DNA of 64,000 bases from Niabella ginsenosidivorans (GTDB lineage Bacteria; Bacteroidota; Bacteroidia; Chitinophagales; Chitinophagaceae): contig NZ_CP015772.1 in the NCBI RefSeq assembly GCF_001654455.1, positions 2,790,001 to 2,854,000 on the forward strand, in the 5' to 3' direction. The position numbers were made by a program, and so were the translations under genes. Every line of letters begins with the position of its first letter. The stretch's first letter is position 1. Of this stretch, positions 5,078-43,832 are shown piece by piece. The notes below the pieces were generated by a model that worked only from the letters and a program-made list of their open reading frames with translations, was not told the DNA's origin and made no database searches.

Positions 5078-6334
5078 TTGTCAGTTGTTATATATACTAT
5101 ATTCCTGTATTTATACAGGTGGGGAATATCGGTTGCTTCGGTGTTCAATAAAAAAGCAAGGTTGTGGATCTCCGGAAGAAAGCGGTTAGCCGAATGGCTG
5201 CACCAGTCGTTTGGCAATAACAATTCCCCTGTGATCTGGATGCACTGCGCATCACTGGGTGAATTTGAACAGGGCCGCCCGGTGCTGGAGGCCCTGAAAC
5301 AGCAATACCCTGGGCATAAAATACTACTCACTTTTTTTTCTCCTTCAGGCTACGAGATCCGGAAAAACTATAACCAGGCTGATTGGGTGGGCTACCTGCC
5401 ACTGGATACCCCGGCTAACGTAAAGCAGTTCCTGGACCAGGTACGTCCGGAATTAGCCCTGTTTGTTAAATACGAATACTGGTATCATTTCCTGCACCAG
5501 CTTAACAGAAGAAACATCCCTACCCTTCTTATTTCAGCGCTTTTCAGGGAAAATTCCATCTTTTTAAAATCCTATGGCGGTTTCCATAGGAAAATGCTGG
5601 GTTTCTTTACGCATATTTTTGTGCAGGATGCAGCCAGTAAAGAACGGCTGGCACATATAGTGCCGGATATAAAAGTGACCGCTGCCGGCGATACAAGATT
5701 TGACCGGGTGGTGCAAATTGCGGATCAGTTTACCCCGATACCTGTAATTGAACGCTTTGCAAAAGACAAACCTTTTATCATCGTTGCCGGCAGCACCTGG
5801 CCGGAGGATGAGCACCTCCTGTCTCAATATATAAATAAAAACAAAAGAAATACATCGTTAATAATTGCTCCGCATGAAATTAATAAAGAGCATATTGACG
5901 AAATAATCAAATACTTCCCGGATGCTGTCCTTTATTCGGTAACAGAGCAGGATGCAGATGCAGCGCTGAACAGCAATATCTTAATTATTGATAATATTGG
6001 TATGCTTTCCAGGCTTTATTATTATGCATCGGTTGCTTATATCGGAGGGGGGTTTAATAAATCCGGCATCCATAATACCCTGGAGGCGGCTGTATTTTCC
6101 AGGCCGGTTATTTTTGGGCCTAACTACAGGAAGTTTTACGAAGCAATAAGCTTAATAAAAAAAGAAGGTGCCTTTTCCTATTCTACTGGTAATGAATTGG
6201 AAGATGAAATAAGAAAACTAAAAAATAATCCTGCCTTTTTAGAAATCTGTGGAAAAAATGCCGGTGATTTTGTACGGGCAGGCACCGGTGCAACAGCAAT
6301 TATACTGAGTTATATTGAAGCAAACCTGCGATAG
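5078..6334 (+). CDS. waaA: 3-deoxy-D-manno-octulosonic acid (Kdo) transferase
   Basis: A GT30 glycosyltransferase that attaches Kdo to lipid A on the inner face of the cytoplasmic membrane. The membrane-anchor helix (ILSVVIYTIFLYLYRWG) is followed by FNKKARLWISGR, as in family members. Later motifs are MHCASLGEFEQGRP, SPSGYE, VAGSTWPEDE and GGGFNKSGIHNTLEAA. The open frame extends up to an ATG at 4916, but the extra 54 residues do not look like the family. I therefore prefer TTG at 5078 (418 residues). It is divergent from the sugar-nucleotide operon, which suits a shared LPS role, and overlaps the convergent gene by 25 bp. Confidence 0.9.
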   Translation: MSVVIYTIFLYLYRWGISVASVFNKKARLWISGRKRLAEWLHQSFGNNNSPVIWMHCASLGEFEQGRPVLEALKQQYPGHKILLTFFSPSGYEIRKNYNQADWVGYLPLDTPANVKQFLDQVRPELALFVKYEYWYHFLHQLNRRNIPTLLISALFRENSIFLKSYGGFHRKMLGFFTHIFVQDAASKERLAHIVPDIKVTAAGDTRFDRVVQIADQFTPIPVIERFAKDKPFIIVAGSTWPEDEHLLSQYINKNKRNTSLIIAPHEINKEHIDEIIKYFPDAVLYSVTEQDADAALNSNILIIDNIGMLSRLYYYASVAYIGGGFNKSGIHNTLEAAVFSRPVIFGPNYRKFYEAISLIKKEGAFSYSTGNELEDEIRKLKNNPAFLEICGKNAGDFVRAGTGATAIILSYIEANLR

Positions 6335-39440: not shown

Positions 39441-40049
39441 ATGGAACTTTCACAGGATACAAAAAACATCTTGGGACTGCAACTGCCTACAGACCCGCGC
39501 TGGGTCAATCTTGCAGAAATATCCCTGGAAGCTATTCTTACAGATCATGCTTATTGCGAGCAAAAAGCAGCTACCAGCTGTATTTCCATTATACAGCGTT
39601 ATAGTGATAAAGATAAACTGGTAAAAGCCCTCGCTCCGATTGTTACAGAAGAATGGGGCCATTTTCGCCTGGTATTGCAGGAACTGGAAAAAAGAGGATT
39701 ACAACTGGGCCGGCAGCGTAAGGACACATATGTAAATGCCCTGCTTCAGTTTCAGTCAAAAGGGGGCAGCCCCGATGCTGTTTTTCTGGATAAACTGCTG
39801 ACCATGGCAATGATAGAAGCAAGAAGCTGCGAGCGTTTTAAACGCTTAAGCGAGGGGTTGAACGATGCCTACCTGAGCAGATTCTATCGCCGCTTTATGG
39901 AAAGCGAGGCCGGTCATTACACCTTATTCATAGAGTTAGCGGAAGAATATCTGCCCAAAGACCAGGTACGTAAAAGATGGACTGAATGGCTGAAGCATGA
40001 AGCTTCCATTATGCAGGAAATGGAACTGAGAGGTGATCGCATTCATTAA
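39441..40049 (+). CDS. miaE: tRNA-(ms2io6A)-hydroxylase MiaE
   Basis: A 202-residue ferritin-like diiron enzyme that hydroxylates the isopentenyl group of ms2i6A at position 37 of tRNAs reading U. Visible ligand motifs are ILTDHAYCEQKAATSCISII (Glu/His), TEEWGHFRLV (E-x2-H) and RSCERFKRLSE with ESEAGHYTLFIELA (E-x2-H). Length is standard. It is a single gene. A TAAATTCG box at 39428-39435 is too close to the start codon to be trusted as a promoter. Confidence 0.93.
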   Translation: MELSQDTKNILGLQLPTDPRWVNLAEISLEAILTDHAYCEQKAATSCISIIQRYSDKDKLVKALAPIVTEEWGHFRLVLQELEKRGLQLGRQRKDTYVNALLQFQSKGGSPDAVFLDKLLTMAMIEARSCERFKRLSEGLNDAYLSRFYRRFMESEAGHYTLFIELAEEYLPKDQVRKRWTEWLKHEASIMQEMELRGDRIH

Positions 40050-41139: not shown

Positions 41140-41245
41140 GATTTTTTATTTGTATTTCAAAAATAATACAACAACGGTATTTCATACCACTTACAGCTAA
41201 ACACAAAACATATATGTTGTTATACAAAAAAATATCAAAAAAAAT

Positions 41246-41276
41246 TTTGTAATATAAAAAAGGAGTTACAACTTTG
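41246..41276 (+). promoter_or_regulatory. Promoter of the micro-ORF/RNA cassette
   Basis: TTTG (41246-41249), a 19-nt spacer and CAACTTTG (41269-41276) fit the Bacteroidota promoter with one mismatch in the -7 box (C for the first T). Transcription would start near 41283, 19 nt before the first micro-ORF. Confidence 0.6.
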
Positions 41277-41301
41277 CATCCGCAAATAAAAACAATATAA
41301 A

Positions 41302-41394
41302 ATGCAACGCAATTATTTATATATTGAAACAAAAGCGTGGTTCAGCCCGGAAGGGCTGAATACCCGTTGCGGGGCATTAGCTGCAGAAAATTAA
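41302..41394 (+). CDS. 30-residue possible leader peptide
   Basis: A micro-ORF starting at ATG 41302 in an A-rich leader, the usual context for Bacteroidota initiation. It encodes 30 residues, beginning MQRNYLYIETKAW and ending GALAAEN. Its central part is a stem TTCAGCCC/GGGCTGAA (41341-41360) with a GGAA tetraloop. The segment TTGCGGGGC (41367-41375) within the ORF can pair with the left arm of the terminator that follows the ORF. It could be a leader peptide in attenuation, or the transcript may be a non-coding RNA. No relative is recognised. Confidence 0.4.
   Translation: MQRNYLYIETKAWFSPEGLNTRCGALAAEN
41341..41360 (+). other. RNA hairpin with GGAA tetraloop
   Basis: TTCAGCCC and GGGCTGAA form a perfect 8-bp stem closed by GGAA, a GNRA-type tetraloop. 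This is typical of a folded RNA and unusual inside a normal coding region. Confidence 0.6.
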
Positions 41395-41420
41395 AAAATA
41401 TCTTTTTTAATAAAACACAG

Positions 41421-41450
41421 GCCCCGCAAGCAATTGCGGGGTTTTTGTTT
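41421..41450 (+). terminator. Intrinsic terminator 1 with competing antiterminator
   Basis: CCCCGCAA (41422-41429) and TTGCGGGG (41434-41441) form an 8-bp stem followed by TTTTTGTTT. The upstream segment 41367-41375 (TTGCGGGGC) can pair with 41421-41429 instead, over 9 bp, and so could disrupt this terminator. Confidence 0.75.
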
Positions 41451-41462
41451 ATACGCAAAAAA

Positions 41463-41600
41463 ATGAAACGGACAGAATTATCCAGTCGATTTACAATAGC
41501 GGCACAGTTCCCCTGCTGGCCCAATGGCGGAGCTATGCACCTGCGCATTCGTAAATCAGCAAACCCAAGACCGGAGTTTTTATATCAGCATCAGGAATAG
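41463..41600 (+). CDS. 45-residue possible small protein
   Basis: An ATG immediately downstream of terminator 1 opens a 45-residue frame starting MKRTELSSRFTIAAQ and ending FLYQHQE. The peptide is basic, without a membrane helix. It has no Shine-Dalgarno and no clear own promoter, so it would need read-through of terminator 1. A second terminator follows 20 bp after its stop. No relative is recognised; whether it is translated is uncertain. Confidence 0.4.
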   Translation: MKRTELSSRFTIAAQFPCWPNGGAMHLRIRKSANPRPEFLYQHQE

Positions 41601-41620
41601 AGCTGCATGTGAGCATAATA

Positions 41621-41655
41621 AAAACCCGGTCCGGAAAAGACCGGGTTTTTTATTA
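41621..41655 (+). terminator. Intrinsic terminator 2
   Basis: AAAACCCGGTC (41621-41631) pairs perfectly with GACCGGGTTTT (41639-41649) around a 7-nt loop and runs into TTATTATT. It is a strong bidirectional-looking intrinsic terminator. Confidence 0.8.
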
Positions 41656-41674
41656 TTCAAAAAGGAGGTATGCT

Positions 41675-41809
41675 ATGAACATCATTTTTATAATTATCCT
41701 GTTGGTATTTATAGTGGAAAGAATAACCGGCAGCAAAAAAACGACTAATATAAAAAACGAATCTTCCGGAACGCGGATCGATGACCCTGCTTCTGTAAGA
41801 TTACGGTAA
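41675..41809 (+). CDS. 44-residue single-pass membrane peptide
   Basis: ATG at 41675 follows an ideal AGGAGG Shine-Dalgarno (41663-41668, 6 nt spacing), which is rare in this genome. The product starts MNIIFIIILLVFIVERI, one membrane helix, then a polar tail rich in Lys, Ser and Arg ending DDPASVRLR. It could be a small membrane regulator or a type I toxin-like peptide. It lies between terminator 2 and the tRNA-like RNA segment. Confidence 0.65.
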   Translation: MNIIFIIILLVFIVERITGSKKTTNIKNESSGTRIDDPASVRLR

Positions 41810-41832
41810 CCGGTTAATTGCAGAGAAAGGAG

Positions 41833-41863
41833 AAACATGCCCCGCGGATGCAGCGGGATGTTT
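41833..41863 (+). other. Stem-loop over a 14-codon micro-ORF start
   Basis: AAACAT (41833-41838) plus CCCGC (41841-41845) pair with GCGGG (41853-41857) plus ATGTTT (41858-41863), leaving a 2-nt bulge and a 7-nt loop. The stem covers the ATG at 41837, which would hide the start codon. Confidence 0.5.
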
Positions 41864-41881
41864 ATGCGGATCAGAGCTTAA
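41837..41881 (+). CDS. 14-residue micro-ORF with strong ribosome site
   Basis: ATG at 41837 is preceded by AAAGGAG (41826-41832). It reads 14 codons (MPRGCSGMFMRIRA) to a TAA at 41879-41881, just 7 nt before the tRNA-like segment. Its start codon lies in the stem described at 41833-41863. It may be a leader peptide controlling folding or processing of the RNA downstream. Translation is unproven. Confidence 0.35.
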   Translation: MPRGCSGMFMRIRA

Positions 41882-41888
41882 CAGATAA

Positions 41889-42048
41889 AGTGCCATAACC
41901 AATACGGCCTGGTGTAAGGGCAACCTGCTCGCTCTCCTTTCTTTTTGAAAGGTAAATACTGATTGATCGTCTTCTGTTCGGACCTGAAAGCCGTACGATC
42001 TGATTGGTACTGAAGACAGGACAAAAAGGTTTGAGTCCTTTGGGCACT
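41889..42048 (+). ncRNA. tRNA-like RNA module with an insertion in place of the anticodon arm
   Basis: Elements of a tRNA occur in the correct order. AGTGCC (41889-41894) pairs with GGCACT (42043-42048) as an acceptor stem. T8-A9 follow. ACCA/TGGT (41898-41901/41910-41913) form a D-stem, with loop ATACGGCC holding the G18-G19 pair. AAAGG/CCTTT with loop TTTGAGT (42025-42041) forms a T-arm, with T in place of C56. About 110 nt replace the anticodon arm; they include a CCTTTC/GAAAGG hairpin (41936-41952) and a GATCGT/ACGATC helix (41965-42000). No CCA end is encoded. It resembles tRNA-mimicking RNAs such as bacterial Y RNAs only in concept. Confidence 0.4.
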
Positions 42049-42060
42049 ACCGATATATGG

Positions 42061-42119
42061 ATTGGGTATAAGGGTCAATATGATCTACGCAATCATTGAT
42101 ACAGGTTTGATTCCTGTGT
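42061..42119 (+). ncRNA. Second tRNA-half-like RNA segment
   Basis: ATGAT/ATCAT (42080-42084/42092-42096) closes a 7-nt loop CTACGCA, which has the shape of an anticodon arm with T33 and anticodon ACG. A 4-nt variable loop leads to a T-arm ACAGG-TTTGATT-CCTGT (42101-42117), again with T at position 56. A 4-bp D-like stem ATTG/CAAT (42061-42064/42076-42079) precedes. No acceptor stem can be formed. It may be a degenerate tRNA, or part of one RNA with the preceding module. Confidence 0.35.
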
Positions 42120-42161
42120 TAAAAACAAAAATGAACAGATTGATGACTAAAATTAAAACCG

Positions 42162-42644
42162 ATGGAACAACAACAATGGCAGCGGTTCGGTGGAACATTT
42201 TTAAGCGGACCGGTTGCTGAAGAAGTGAACAAGGCATTAATAACGGAACAGGAAGCCGGCAATACTATACAGGTATGCCTGGGCACCGACAGCCAGGTAA
42301 AAGGCGCCGTTATTGAATTTGCAACAGTGATCGTTTTTGTACGAAGAGGAAAGGGCGCTTTTCTTTTTCTGCAGAAAGAACTGCTGCATAAAAAAATGAG
42401 CATCCGGGAGCGCCTGTTAATGGAAGTAGATAAAACCGTTCAGCTGACGTTACAACTGAATGAGGTCTTTAAAAGACACAGGATCGCTCCGGAGCTGCAT
42501 ATAGACATTAACACTTCTGCTGCATATAGAAGTAATGCCGCGCTCCACGAAGCCATAGGGTACGTTTCAGGAATGGGCTGGACCTGTAAGGCAAAACCAA
42601 ACGCCTTTGCAAGCTCCAGCTGTGCCAACAGAGTTGTTCAATAA
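42162..42644 (+). CDS. YkuK-family (DUF458) RNase H-like protein
   Basis: A 160-residue protein of the YkuK/DUF458 family, predicted to have the RNase H fold. The first-strand acidic motif GTDSQVKG (D43) and the strand FATVIVFVRRGKGAFLF are visible, with a second acidic segment ELHIDINTSAAYRSN and a C-terminal ALHEAIGYVSGMGWTCKAKP. Likely a nuclease or nucleic-acid binding protein. It is directly downstream of the tRNA-like RNA segments and 77 bp upstream of an AAA+ ATPase on the same strand, so RNA as the target is a reasonable inference. Confidence 0.85.
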   Translation: MEQQQWQRFGGTFLSGPVAEEVNKALITEQEAGNTIQVCLGTDSQVKGAVIEFATVIVFVRRGKGAFLFLQKELLHKKMSIRERLLMEVDKTVQLTLQLNEVFKRHRIAPELHIDINTSAAYRSNAALHEAIGYVSGMGWTCKAKPNAFASSSCANRVVQ

Positions 42645-42721
42645 GGCCGTTGCAAAAAGCACCAATATCAACCACTTTATAGCCTCCTGTCTGATGAGGT
42701 ACTAAAGTTAAAAAACAAAAA

Positions 42722-43789
42722 ATGGAACAGGAATCAATACAAAAAGTAATCAACACCAATGAGCTTTTCGGAGATGCGTTTATCAATGCAAAAGTGCTGT
42801 ATCTTCATGAATTCGGCAAATTGCCCTGCACACTGTTCATAGGTCAGCTGGATGGCAGTAAGGCTTTTACTGCATTGAAAGAACTGCTGGCCGGTCGGAC
42901 CAGGCACATTTTCCAGCGTCAATGGTTCAAGCGGAAAAATAAAAAGTTCCAGTATGATACAGCGATCTTCCTTTTAAACGACGGCTGTATCCTGGAACTG
43001 GATGAGTACTGGTGTGAGATCCTGCACGATGGAAACAATGATCTGCTGATCCGGGAAATCGTGCACCTGCTGCAGCAATTCCACGAAAAGAAAAAAAAGG
43101 AGCCACTGGAAATTAACCTGATCGTCCGCGACGGGAACAGGCTGCTGCTAAAATCAATGGAAATAAAAAGAAACAGGCTCGATCTGGATCTTTTTTATGA
43201 AGATGATTTCAAAGCAGTGGACTCGTGTATCCGCCAGCGGCTGAACCGGAAAAAAGATAAGGGCATTGTACTGCTGCACGGCTTGCCCGGAACAGGGAAA
43301 ACCTCGTACCTCAGGTACCTGGTGGGAAAGATCAGAAAGCGGGTGCTTTTCCTCTCACCTTCCGTTGCAGGCAACCTGATCAGCCCGGATTTTATCCAGT
43401 TGCTGATTAATAACCCGGATACGGTACTGATCATTGAAGATGCTGAAAATATTATTATGGACCGTCGCTACAGCTCCGGTTCATCGGTATCTGATCTGTT
43501 GAATATATCAGACGGGTTACTGGCCGACTTTTTAAACATTCAGCTCATCTGCACTTTTAACAGCGCACTCACCCTTATTGATGAAGCACTGCTGAGAGAG
43601 GGCCGGCTCATTGCAAAATATGAATTCAGGAAATTGAGCGTGGAAAAGGCCCGGGCGCTGGCATGCCATCTGGGATACCCGCAAAACATTACAGAGCCCA
43701 GCACTTTGGCGGAGATCTGTAATTTTGAACCGGTTGCCGGAAAACAGGCAAAACCGGCCCCGATCGGCTTCCGGCTGGCAACCAGCTAA
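42722..43789 (+). CDS. AAA+ family ATPase
   Basis: A 355-residue protein with an N-terminal non-ATPase region (1-175) of unknown fold and a C-terminal AAA+ module. The Walker A motif is GLPGTGKT (residues 187-194), Walker B is VLIIED (E239, D240), sensor-1 Asn is N280 in LICTFN, and the arginine-rich LLREGRL follows. The layout recalls BCS1-like ATPases but without a membrane helix. It likely remodels a complex or works with the YkuK protein. A terminator closes the unit 10 bp after its stop. Confidence 0.85.
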   Translation: MEQESIQKVINTNELFGDAFINAKVLYLHEFGKLPCTLFIGQLDGSKAFTALKELLAGRTRHIFQRQWFKRKNKKFQYDTAIFLLNDGCILELDEYWCEILHDGNNDLLIREIVHLLQQFHEKKKKEPLEINLIVRDGNRLLLKSMEIKRNRLDLDLFYEDDFKAVDSCIRQRLNRKKDKGIVLLHGLPGTGKTSYLRYLVGKIRKRVLFLSPSVAGNLISPDFIQLLINNPDTVLIIEDAENIIMDRRYSSGSSVSDLLNISDGLLADFLNIQLICTFNSALTLIDEALLREGRLIAKYEFRKLSVEKARALACHLGYPQNITEPSTLAEICNFEPVAGKQAKPAPIGFRLATS

Positions 43790-43799
43790 AGCAAATAAG

Positions 43800-43832
43800 A
43801 ACATCCGGCAGCAATAACCGGATGTTTTATTA
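43800..43832 (+). terminator. Intrinsic terminator 3 closing the ykuK-AAA unit
   Basis: AACATCCGG (43800-43808) pairs with CCGGATGTT (43818-43826) over 9 bp around a 9-nt loop, and TTATTATT follows. It is a clear intrinsic terminator and ends the cassette that begins at the 41246 promoter. Confidence 0.8.

Follow-up and report, generated by a model that had tools for sequence, protein, structure and literature searches.

An attenuator-like leader with a varied reading frame at a reduced RNA-repair locus of Niabella ginsenosidivorans

The locus and its relatives

The DNA examined here, 'the window', is a stretch of 64,000 nucleotides (nt) from Niabella ginsenosidivorans (contig NZ_CP015772.1, positions 2,790,001–2,854,000), and it contains a compact locus that, judged by comparison with relatives, represents in reduced form an RNA-repair locus found in the Chitinophagaceae. 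The locus begins with a Bacteroidota-type promoter region (41240–41277), which ends in a TTTGC element and falls within a conserved leader. Then come a 30-codon open reading frame (ORF1), a terminator, two more small ORFs with a second terminator between them, and a row of tRNA-like sequences. A YkuK-family RNase H-like protein of 160 amino acids (aa; 42162–42644) and a Bcs1-like AAA+ ATPase of 355 aa (42722–43789) are encoded next, and a final terminator, an 8-bp hairpin and then a T-rich stretch (43801–43830), closes the locus. It is flanked by a GNAT gene and by a DoxX gene on the other strand. A first-pass annotation, made from the letters alone, had listed these parts, and every one of them is present, all on the plus strand. 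It went on to suggest an RNA-processing or RNA-sensing system furnished with a guide-like or decoy RNA of its own. That last element finds no support, and the guide RNA has been abandoned, because the upstream RNA aligns with the tRNA arrays and the leader ORF of relatives: what lies there is a leader that has an attenuator-like terminator, and after it what is left of a tRNA array.

The suggestion of an RNA-processing or RNA-sensing system has fared better. Of 294 family genomes, 101 have a match to the AAA+ protein at E ≤ 1e-3, in some a weak one; 60 of the loci were retrieved, and their genes were clustered together with those of the window, making 61 loci in all. An RtcB-type gene recurs in 41 of these, YkuK in 22 (the window included) and a Band-7 gene in 21. 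The RtcB label is based on PF01139 in the genome's own member (1.6e-77) and on the tblastn matches of that member, and the Band-7 label on PF01145 in the Niabella drilacis member (2.1e-30). The neighbourhood search that had been proposed as a check thus finds the same genes again and again in the company of RtcB, Band-7 and tRNA arrays, joined in some relatives by RlaP-type nucleotidyltransferases or by a TROVE protein (PF05731); a LigT-type 2H protein is also added in some.

The nearest named relatives are themselves Niabella: the AAA+ proteins of N. drilacis and N. pedocola share 85% with that of the window. In N. drilacis the leader is followed, in order, by small ORFs, tRNAs, a gene for a 257-aa protein, YkuK, AAA+, a WYL regulator on the other strand, Band-7, two RlaP-type nucleotidyltransferases and DoxX. 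By comparison, the window lacks the 257-aa gene and everything between AAA+ and DoxX. It contains no RtcB ligase gene either; the RtcB gene of this genome lies at another place, outside the window. RlaP was not found in this genome in a search with controls, nor was Band-7 in a search that had no positive control. With these two not found here and the tRNA array decayed, only some of the function may survive in the local copy.

The two proteins that do remain are recognizable enough. YkuK matches PF04308 at 112.5 bits against a cut-off of 25 (E = 2e-32), and the RNase H fold that the first-pass annotation mentioned as predicted is already in print, published work placing YkuK in the RNase H-like superfamily; by sequence, no convincing relative of solved structure was found. 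The AAA+ protein (PF00004, E = 2.5e-9) was modeled with AlphaFold2 at a mean predicted local distance difference test score of 76.8 and a predicted template modeling (TM) score of 0.54. The best PDB matches of the model are Bcs1 and YjoB of Bacillus subtilis, with a TM-score of about 0.4 over the whole chain and of about 0.58, by target length, against the AAA domain of Bcs1 alone; as modeled, then, the protein has an AAA domain and a Bcs1-type fold. Among defense systems, PADLOC returned only a weak TRIP13 match to the AAA+ protein for the five proteins scanned.

Some neighbors deserve mention in their own right. The N-terminal domain of the AAA+ protein also occurs as a stand-alone protein of 141–146 aa, encoded between leader and RtcB (retrieved loci L329, at 5880–6320, and L330). 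Within 6 kb downstream, 18 of 135 leaders have a gene for a basic protein of some 250 aa from a family to which no Pfam profile matches (L093:6655–7428, L035:7693–8478 and others). Upstream of the locus in the window, at 39441–40049, lies a gene for a MiaE-type tRNA hydroxylase (PF06175), and L093 has its counterpart in the same position; as a tRNA-modification gene it may or may not belong to the locus.

The leader, its reading frame and its terminator

The first 200 bases are the most conserved part of the locus. A leader profile was grown from 41231–41450 and applied to the window together with retrieved loci L031–L090 and L093–L172, a set of 141 that was reduced to 117 non-redundant AAA+ loci by shared 300-mers; 104 of the 117 are matched, with 116 matches in all. 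Conservation is well above chance, and that of 41283–42160, which the first-pass annotation had thought worth looking for, is present. Whether the YkuK and AAA+ genes occur in relatives without the upstream RNA, a possibility the same annotation had raised against its own idea, has a divided answer: near an intact AAA+ gene, 26 of the 61 loci have at least two tRNAs and the other 35 have one or none, but the leader RNA is kept in the 104. The TTTGC element lies 5' of the leader ATG by a median of 22 nt in 94 of 114 leaders, and we take its TTTG motif to be the –7 element of the promoter.

Nearly every leader match, 114 of the 116, contains an ORF of 27–36 codons that begins with ATG or GTG, and in 69 the length is exactly 30; the remaining two matches, which have no fitting ORF, do not enter the peptide statistics. 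In the other two frames a run of 27 codons free of stops is seen in only 25 and 11 of the 114, and shuffled versions are open in 19%. In the window the ORF is ORF1 (41302–41394), which encodes MQRNYLYIETKAWFSPEGLNTRCGALAAEN and uses 17 different amino acids. It also contains an 8-bp hairpin (41341–41360), seen in the sequence and mostly formed in the minimum free energy (MFE) structure of the window.

The leader peptides are highly divergent in sequence, and what they have in common is variety. A leader contains on average 17.0 different amino acids, against 14.6 (standard deviation 1.55) in random protein windows, 15.2 when residues are drawn from the pooled composition of the leaders, and 14.5 and 14.8 in the other two frames with stops dropped. 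At least 18 different amino acids are found in 41% of leaders, where 2.4% would be expected, and seven leaders, representing six different peptides, contain all 20. When residues are shuffled within alignment columns, the mean for the 67 unique 30-mers, 17.30 as observed, falls to 16.08, and that for 30 representatives less than 60% identical falls from 17.0 to 15.77; none of 2000 shuffles reaches the observed value in either case. The excess is confined to codons 2–18 (12.98 against 10.78, 66 representatives); codons 19–30 of the 30-codon leaders have none (8.5 against 8.65). This contrast within the sequences is a stronger argument than the significance figures themselves, though codons 19–30 also bear an RNA motif; related species are not independent, and so the shuffle counts and the z-scores overstate the significance.

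A terminator is recognized in 102 of the 114 leaders and starts 19–35 nt past the ORF stop. In the window it occupies 41419–41446 and consists of segment 3 (41421–41429), segment 4 (41434–41441) and a T run. Its helix covaries: in an alignment of 45 of the 76 listed leader stretches 14 cells are changed on both sides, and none of 500 shuffles has as many. Near codons 21–24 of the ORF lies a putative antiterminator strand, segment 2 (TTGCGGGGC, 41367–41375 in the window), that is complementary to segment 3, the 5' arm of the terminator. Pairing was tested on the 102 leaders, the 12 without a recognized terminator being left out. When the sequence between codon 15 and the last base of segment 3 is folded, the MFE structure contains the helix of segments 2 and 3 (2:3) in 95 of them, and the complementarity is significant against dinucleotide shuffles (p ≤ 0.05) in 67. 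Nucleotide-level conservation is evident around segment 2, and its GCGGGG-type motif is found in all three reading frames—in 59, 19 and 9 leaders, with 27 having no such motif. A motif that is kept across three frames indicates selection on the RNA.

Folding of the window's own leader is instructive. The full leader folds with the terminator as its MFE structure. The stretch that an early-stalled ribosome would leave free adopts the antiterminator fold only until segment 4 is made, whereupon the terminator is again the MFE structure; such a switch would therefore have to be kinetic.

Two more small ORFs follow in the window. ORF2 (41463–41600) has 45 codons there and in N. drilacis and N. pedocola, and uses 16–18 different amino acids. 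A second terminator (41622–41652) starts some 20–25 nt past its stop and is conserved in these two close relatives, and the pair (41463–41652) may be a tandem switch, ORF2 then being a second leader ORF. ORF3 (41675–41809) encodes a small protein of 44 aa (MNIIFIIILLVFIVERITGSKKT...DDPASVRLR) with a hydrophobic N-terminal segment. In the window, as in N. drilacis and N. pedocola, it sits between the attenuator and the array, and it has a clear coding signature: differences fall at the three codon positions as 9, 9 and 21 against N. drilacis and as 7, 7 and 23 against N. pedocola. The 'micro-ORFs' of the first-pass annotation therefore come out unevenly. ORF1 stands as a conserved leader ORF and ORF3 by its coding pattern, whereas ORF2 is conserved in length but displays no third-position bias.

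How closely the leader keeps to these genes can be judged beyond the loci that the AAA+ protein supplied. Of 288 genomes of the family, 159 have at least one match at E ≤ 1e-3 to a covariance model of the leader, and many have several, though the weakest matches are probably generic terminators in part; in a set of 395 genomes from across the phylum, the matches that fall outside the family are weak, 41.2 bits at best, and mostly partial. From strong matches away from AAA+ matches leader copies were picked by hand, and 19 of 20 regions were analyzed; two of the 19 adjoin genes for the stand-alone AAA+ N-terminal domain. Seventeen of the 19 have RtcB, YkuK or Band-7 genes within 6 kb downstream; of the remaining two, one precedes a Band-7 fragment of 52 residues together with a tRNA, and the other precedes five tRNAs. 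Of all 135 leaders, 133 lie no more than 6 kb from a match (E ≤ 1e-5) to at least one of the families: AAA+ in 116, YkuK in 64, RtcB in 58 and Band-7 in 53, with at least two tRNAs in 65. The AAA+ figure is biased, because most of the loci were found through AAA+, whereas YkuK, RtcB, Band-7 and tRNAs were not selected for.

tRNA arrays and an unusual tRNA-like RNA

At the place where the window has its tRNA-like sequences, relatives have arrays of up to 13 tRNA genes as identified by ARAGORN; a further locus, reached by way of the leader, has 14. The window itself has no intact run of tRNAs: the genome has 43 tRNA matches, none of them in the window, where ARAGORN also reports no tRNA and no Rfam family reaches its gathering score. 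A relaxed Rfam scan of the window returned sub-threshold hits only, mostly to terminator-bearing small RNAs and leaders, with no tRNA and nothing that overlaps 41903–41996. The resemblance to tRNA arms that the first-pass annotation had noticed is real all the same, for three tRNA remnants and one intact, unusual tRNA-like RNA are present.

The remnants were tested by local match to eight array tRNAs of Niabella relatives, with 200 shuffles each, and in all three cases no shuffle matched as well. The first (41855–41900), also seen in a MAFFT alignment, is what is left of a tRNA-His whose 3' half is mostly lost; its best match is tRNA-His of N. defluvii. The second (42006–42051) best matches tRNA-Phe of the same species. 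The third (42057–42127), altered at the acceptor end and in the anticodon loop, best matches tRNA-Trp of N. pedocola and N. drilacis; MAFFT had placed this remnant elsewhere, and an assignment to tRNA-Arg was replaced on the strength of the local-match test.

The tRNA-like RNA, element E (41903–41996), has strong matches in 26 of the 117 loci, the window included. Acceptor, D and T arms are all there, but the anticodon arm is built in two stories—a 6-bp stem leads through an asymmetric internal loop to a 6-bp hairpin whose loop has 5 nt—and so does not conform to the canonical cloverleaf with its 5-bp stem and 7-nt loop. When 21 of the 26 are aligned, 99.0% of pair cells are paired and 17 of 28 pairs change on both sides; none of 500 shuffles matches this, slid versions fall far off too, and RNAalifold predicts the same fold de novo. 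Rfam has no match for element E in the window or in four relatives, where only tRNA models matched. The inner loop often resembles a Glu anticodon loop, though not in the window, and the element E of L155 carries an insert in the T arm.

From 140 partly overlapping loci we collected 422 different tRNAs, a few of them outside arrays; the commonest are those for Phe, Asn, Lys, Gln, Arg(ACG) and His, and no Thr tRNA was seen. Many of the known targets of anticodon nucleases are represented. Among the locus tRNAs 20 different ones are Ile(TAT) (e.g. in L033, L041 and L052), an anticodon absent from the host tRNAs of the two genomes examined. Compared with host isoacceptors, array tRNAs are only 0.405 identical in the acceptor stem and 0.366 in the anticodon stem, whereas two host sets, as a control, give 0.845 and 0.891. 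Their stems are nonetheless almost completely paired, and the anticodon loop is the best-kept part after the T loop (0.789 and 0.815). The discriminator base is that of the host in 88.6% of 414 array tRNAs, compared with 44.2% on shuffling, and for 384 of 415 the nearest relative is the array tRNA with the same anticodon at another locus. By these sequence comparisons the array tRNAs are a separate, maintained lineage that has kept its charging marks and looks more like a replacement set than a set of decoys; the retention of host discriminator bases favors real tRNAs. In the array of N. pedocola (L094:6060–6760) the tRNA-His, -Arg and -Phe carry palindromic inserts of some 16–20 nt, of the CCCGATAGC.ATCGGGA type, in the T loop after TTC, as far as can be judged by eye.

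Known systems, a proposed mechanism and its alternatives

Parts of this arrangement recall systems that are already known. In Pseudomonas aeruginosa, as reported, a leader peptide (PA5471.1) and a terminator precede the RtcB-like gene armZ; attenuation was proposed, and impaired ribosomes induce the gene. That leader is 13 aa long, unlike the roughly 30 codons and near-complete amino acid variety found here; armZ, moreover, is an efflux-pump anti-repressor, and the accessible account mentions no tRNA array for it. The trn operon of Anabaena is reported to be a silent spare tRNA array that translation inhibitors induce, under the same repressor, TrcR, as rtcB, slipin and AAA ATPase genes. TrcR, however, acts at scattered loci, whereas in the Chitinophagaceae there is often one linked locus, with YkuK, behind a leader RNA. 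The RtcB operons rtcBA and rsr-yrlBA-rtcBA and the RlaP repair systems share with relatives of our locus the RtcB, TROVE and RlaP families; the Chitinophagaceae locus adds the tRNA array, YkuK and the Bcs1-like AAA+. The Salmonella RtcB operon is reported to be run differently, by RtcR with sigma-54, sensing tRNA halves; RtcR was not searched for here.

With trp-type attenuators the leader shares an ORF and mutually exclusive antiterminator and terminator structures. Classical attenuator leaders are known for repeating one or a few amino acids; the Chitinophagaceae leader, unlike them, samples most. Jumbo phages (PA5oct-like, XacN1), among others, have homologs of the AAA+ protein, 36–42% identical in the 15 best of 85 records, and in MIJ3 some 7 kb separate the homolog from tRNA genes. 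Two phage regions have no annotated YkuK, though most of their genes are called hypothetical, and leader-like RNA was not searched for there. L249 and the 85 phage records hint at exchange between phage and host, and jumbo phages are reported to pair tRNAs with RtcB and RlaP.

How, then, might the locus work? RNA polymerase would start near 41277, with a ribosome trailing through the 30-codon leader ORF. As long as charged tRNAs are plentiful, the ribosome would arrive at the end of the ORF and cover segment 2, and segments 3 and 4 would form the terminator and stop transcription. Should any one of many charged tRNAs become scarce—through cleavage by an anticodon nuclease, lack of charging, or slowed translation generally—the ribosome would stall somewhere in codons 2–18. 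Segment 2 would then be free to pair with segment 3, no terminator would form, and polymerase would read through into the array and the repair genes. In relatives the products would be a second set of tRNAs, RtcB, Band-7 (and in some RlaP, TROVE or a WYL regulator), YkuK and the Bcs1-like AAA+ protein. The elements drawn upon here—the ORF, the terminator, the complementary segment, the diversity of codons 2–18, the association of genes, and a distinct set of tRNAs with intact charging marks—come out of comparison among the relatives; transcription, control by stalling, and the roles of the enzymes we infer. On balance we think it probable that this is a translation-stress-controlled operon for tRNA supply and RNA repair, opened by a ribosome-mediated attenuator that senses shortage of many charged tRNAs, and that the copy in this genome is a reduced one.

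Several observations sit uneasily with such an attenuator, beyond the inflated significance already mentioned. Not all amino acids are fully covered: Asp occurs in 54% of leaders where 79% would be expected and Glu in 68% against 83%, Trp (37% against 31%) is only slightly above expectation, 26 of the 114 leaders have 15 or fewer different amino acids, and the window's own leader has no His, Val or Asp. Codon choice leans toward the array anticodons for Arg, Gln and Ile, and not for Ser, Lys or Glu. Neither ORF1 nor ORF2 displays third-position bias among the window, N. drilacis and N. pedocola, so that translation of ORF1 is read from the open frame only. The 2:3 complementarity is not significant in 35 of the 102 leaders, and the helix covaries weakly, because both strands hardly vary. 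A protector helix (1:2), seen in the MFE structure of the window, finds no support in relatives, where it is 58.5% paired in one register compared with 34–55% when slid, and we dropped it. Finally, 13 of the 117 AAA+ loci have no leader match, none precedes this genome's own RtcB gene, and the tRNA array has decayed here.

Other explanations account for some of this. If the ORF were not translated at all, and the conserved RNA were a riboregulator that binds a protein or ligand, the missing third-position bias among close leaders and the nucleotide-level conservation around segment 2 would be natural, the open frame and the diversity being side effects. Such side effects would have to include a fitting frame in 114 of 116 matches when the other frames are so seldom open, an ORF stop held 19–35 nt from the terminator, and amino acid diversity in the ORF1 frame only, and we regard this explanation as very improbable. 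Translation granted, the leader could sense the slowing of ribosomes in general, as translation-targeting antibiotics cause it and as is thought for PA5471.1, with the amino acid mix incidental. The Pseudomonas leader is reported to respond to ribosome-targeting drugs and to control an RtcB-like gene, and the Anabaena array to respond to drugs of the same kind. But a generic stall sensor needs no such variety, let alone one whose excess is restricted to codons 2–18 and survives within-column shuffling; we consider this unlikely, though less so than the untranslated riboregulator.

The upstream RNA could also be bait, the array tRNAs and element E soaking up anticodon nucleases and the proteins acting on the resulting complexes. 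Acceptor and anticodon stems so far from those of the host, combined with a well-kept anticodon loop, would suit a decoy, as would the T-loop insertions in some Niabella array tRNAs; a decoy, however, would need neither the discriminator bases nor the stem pairing that the array tRNAs have kept. Bait seems to us a poor bet for the array, and is least unlikely for element E (41903–41996). The attenuator that senses many charged tRNAs remains our preference, and a more sweeping version of it seems to us to have slightly the better of the odds: that the leader is a general sensor of tRNA integrity, an ORF of about 30 codons that tests most tRNAs in a single pass, and that any loss opens a regulon comprising a complete second lineage of tRNAs, RNA ligase repair, Band-7 and AAA+ proteins, and a new class of tRNA-like RNA with a two-story anticodon arm.

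Among the papers listed in searches of the open-licence literature, none describes this leader or this set of genes, nor a leader-controlled unit that contains YkuK and a Bcs1-like AAA+ protein. If the proposal holds, bacteria would have in this attenuator, which watches most amino acids, a simple built-in alarm for damaged tRNA, and the detection of anticodon nucleases, and the timing with which the spare tRNA array is brought into use, would become testable. The YkuK family, the bacterial Bcs1-like AAA+ proteins and a tRNA-like RNA unmatched in Rfam would each acquire a functional context. The copy in the window is worn, yet it has led to a conserved switch whose logic can be tested directly.

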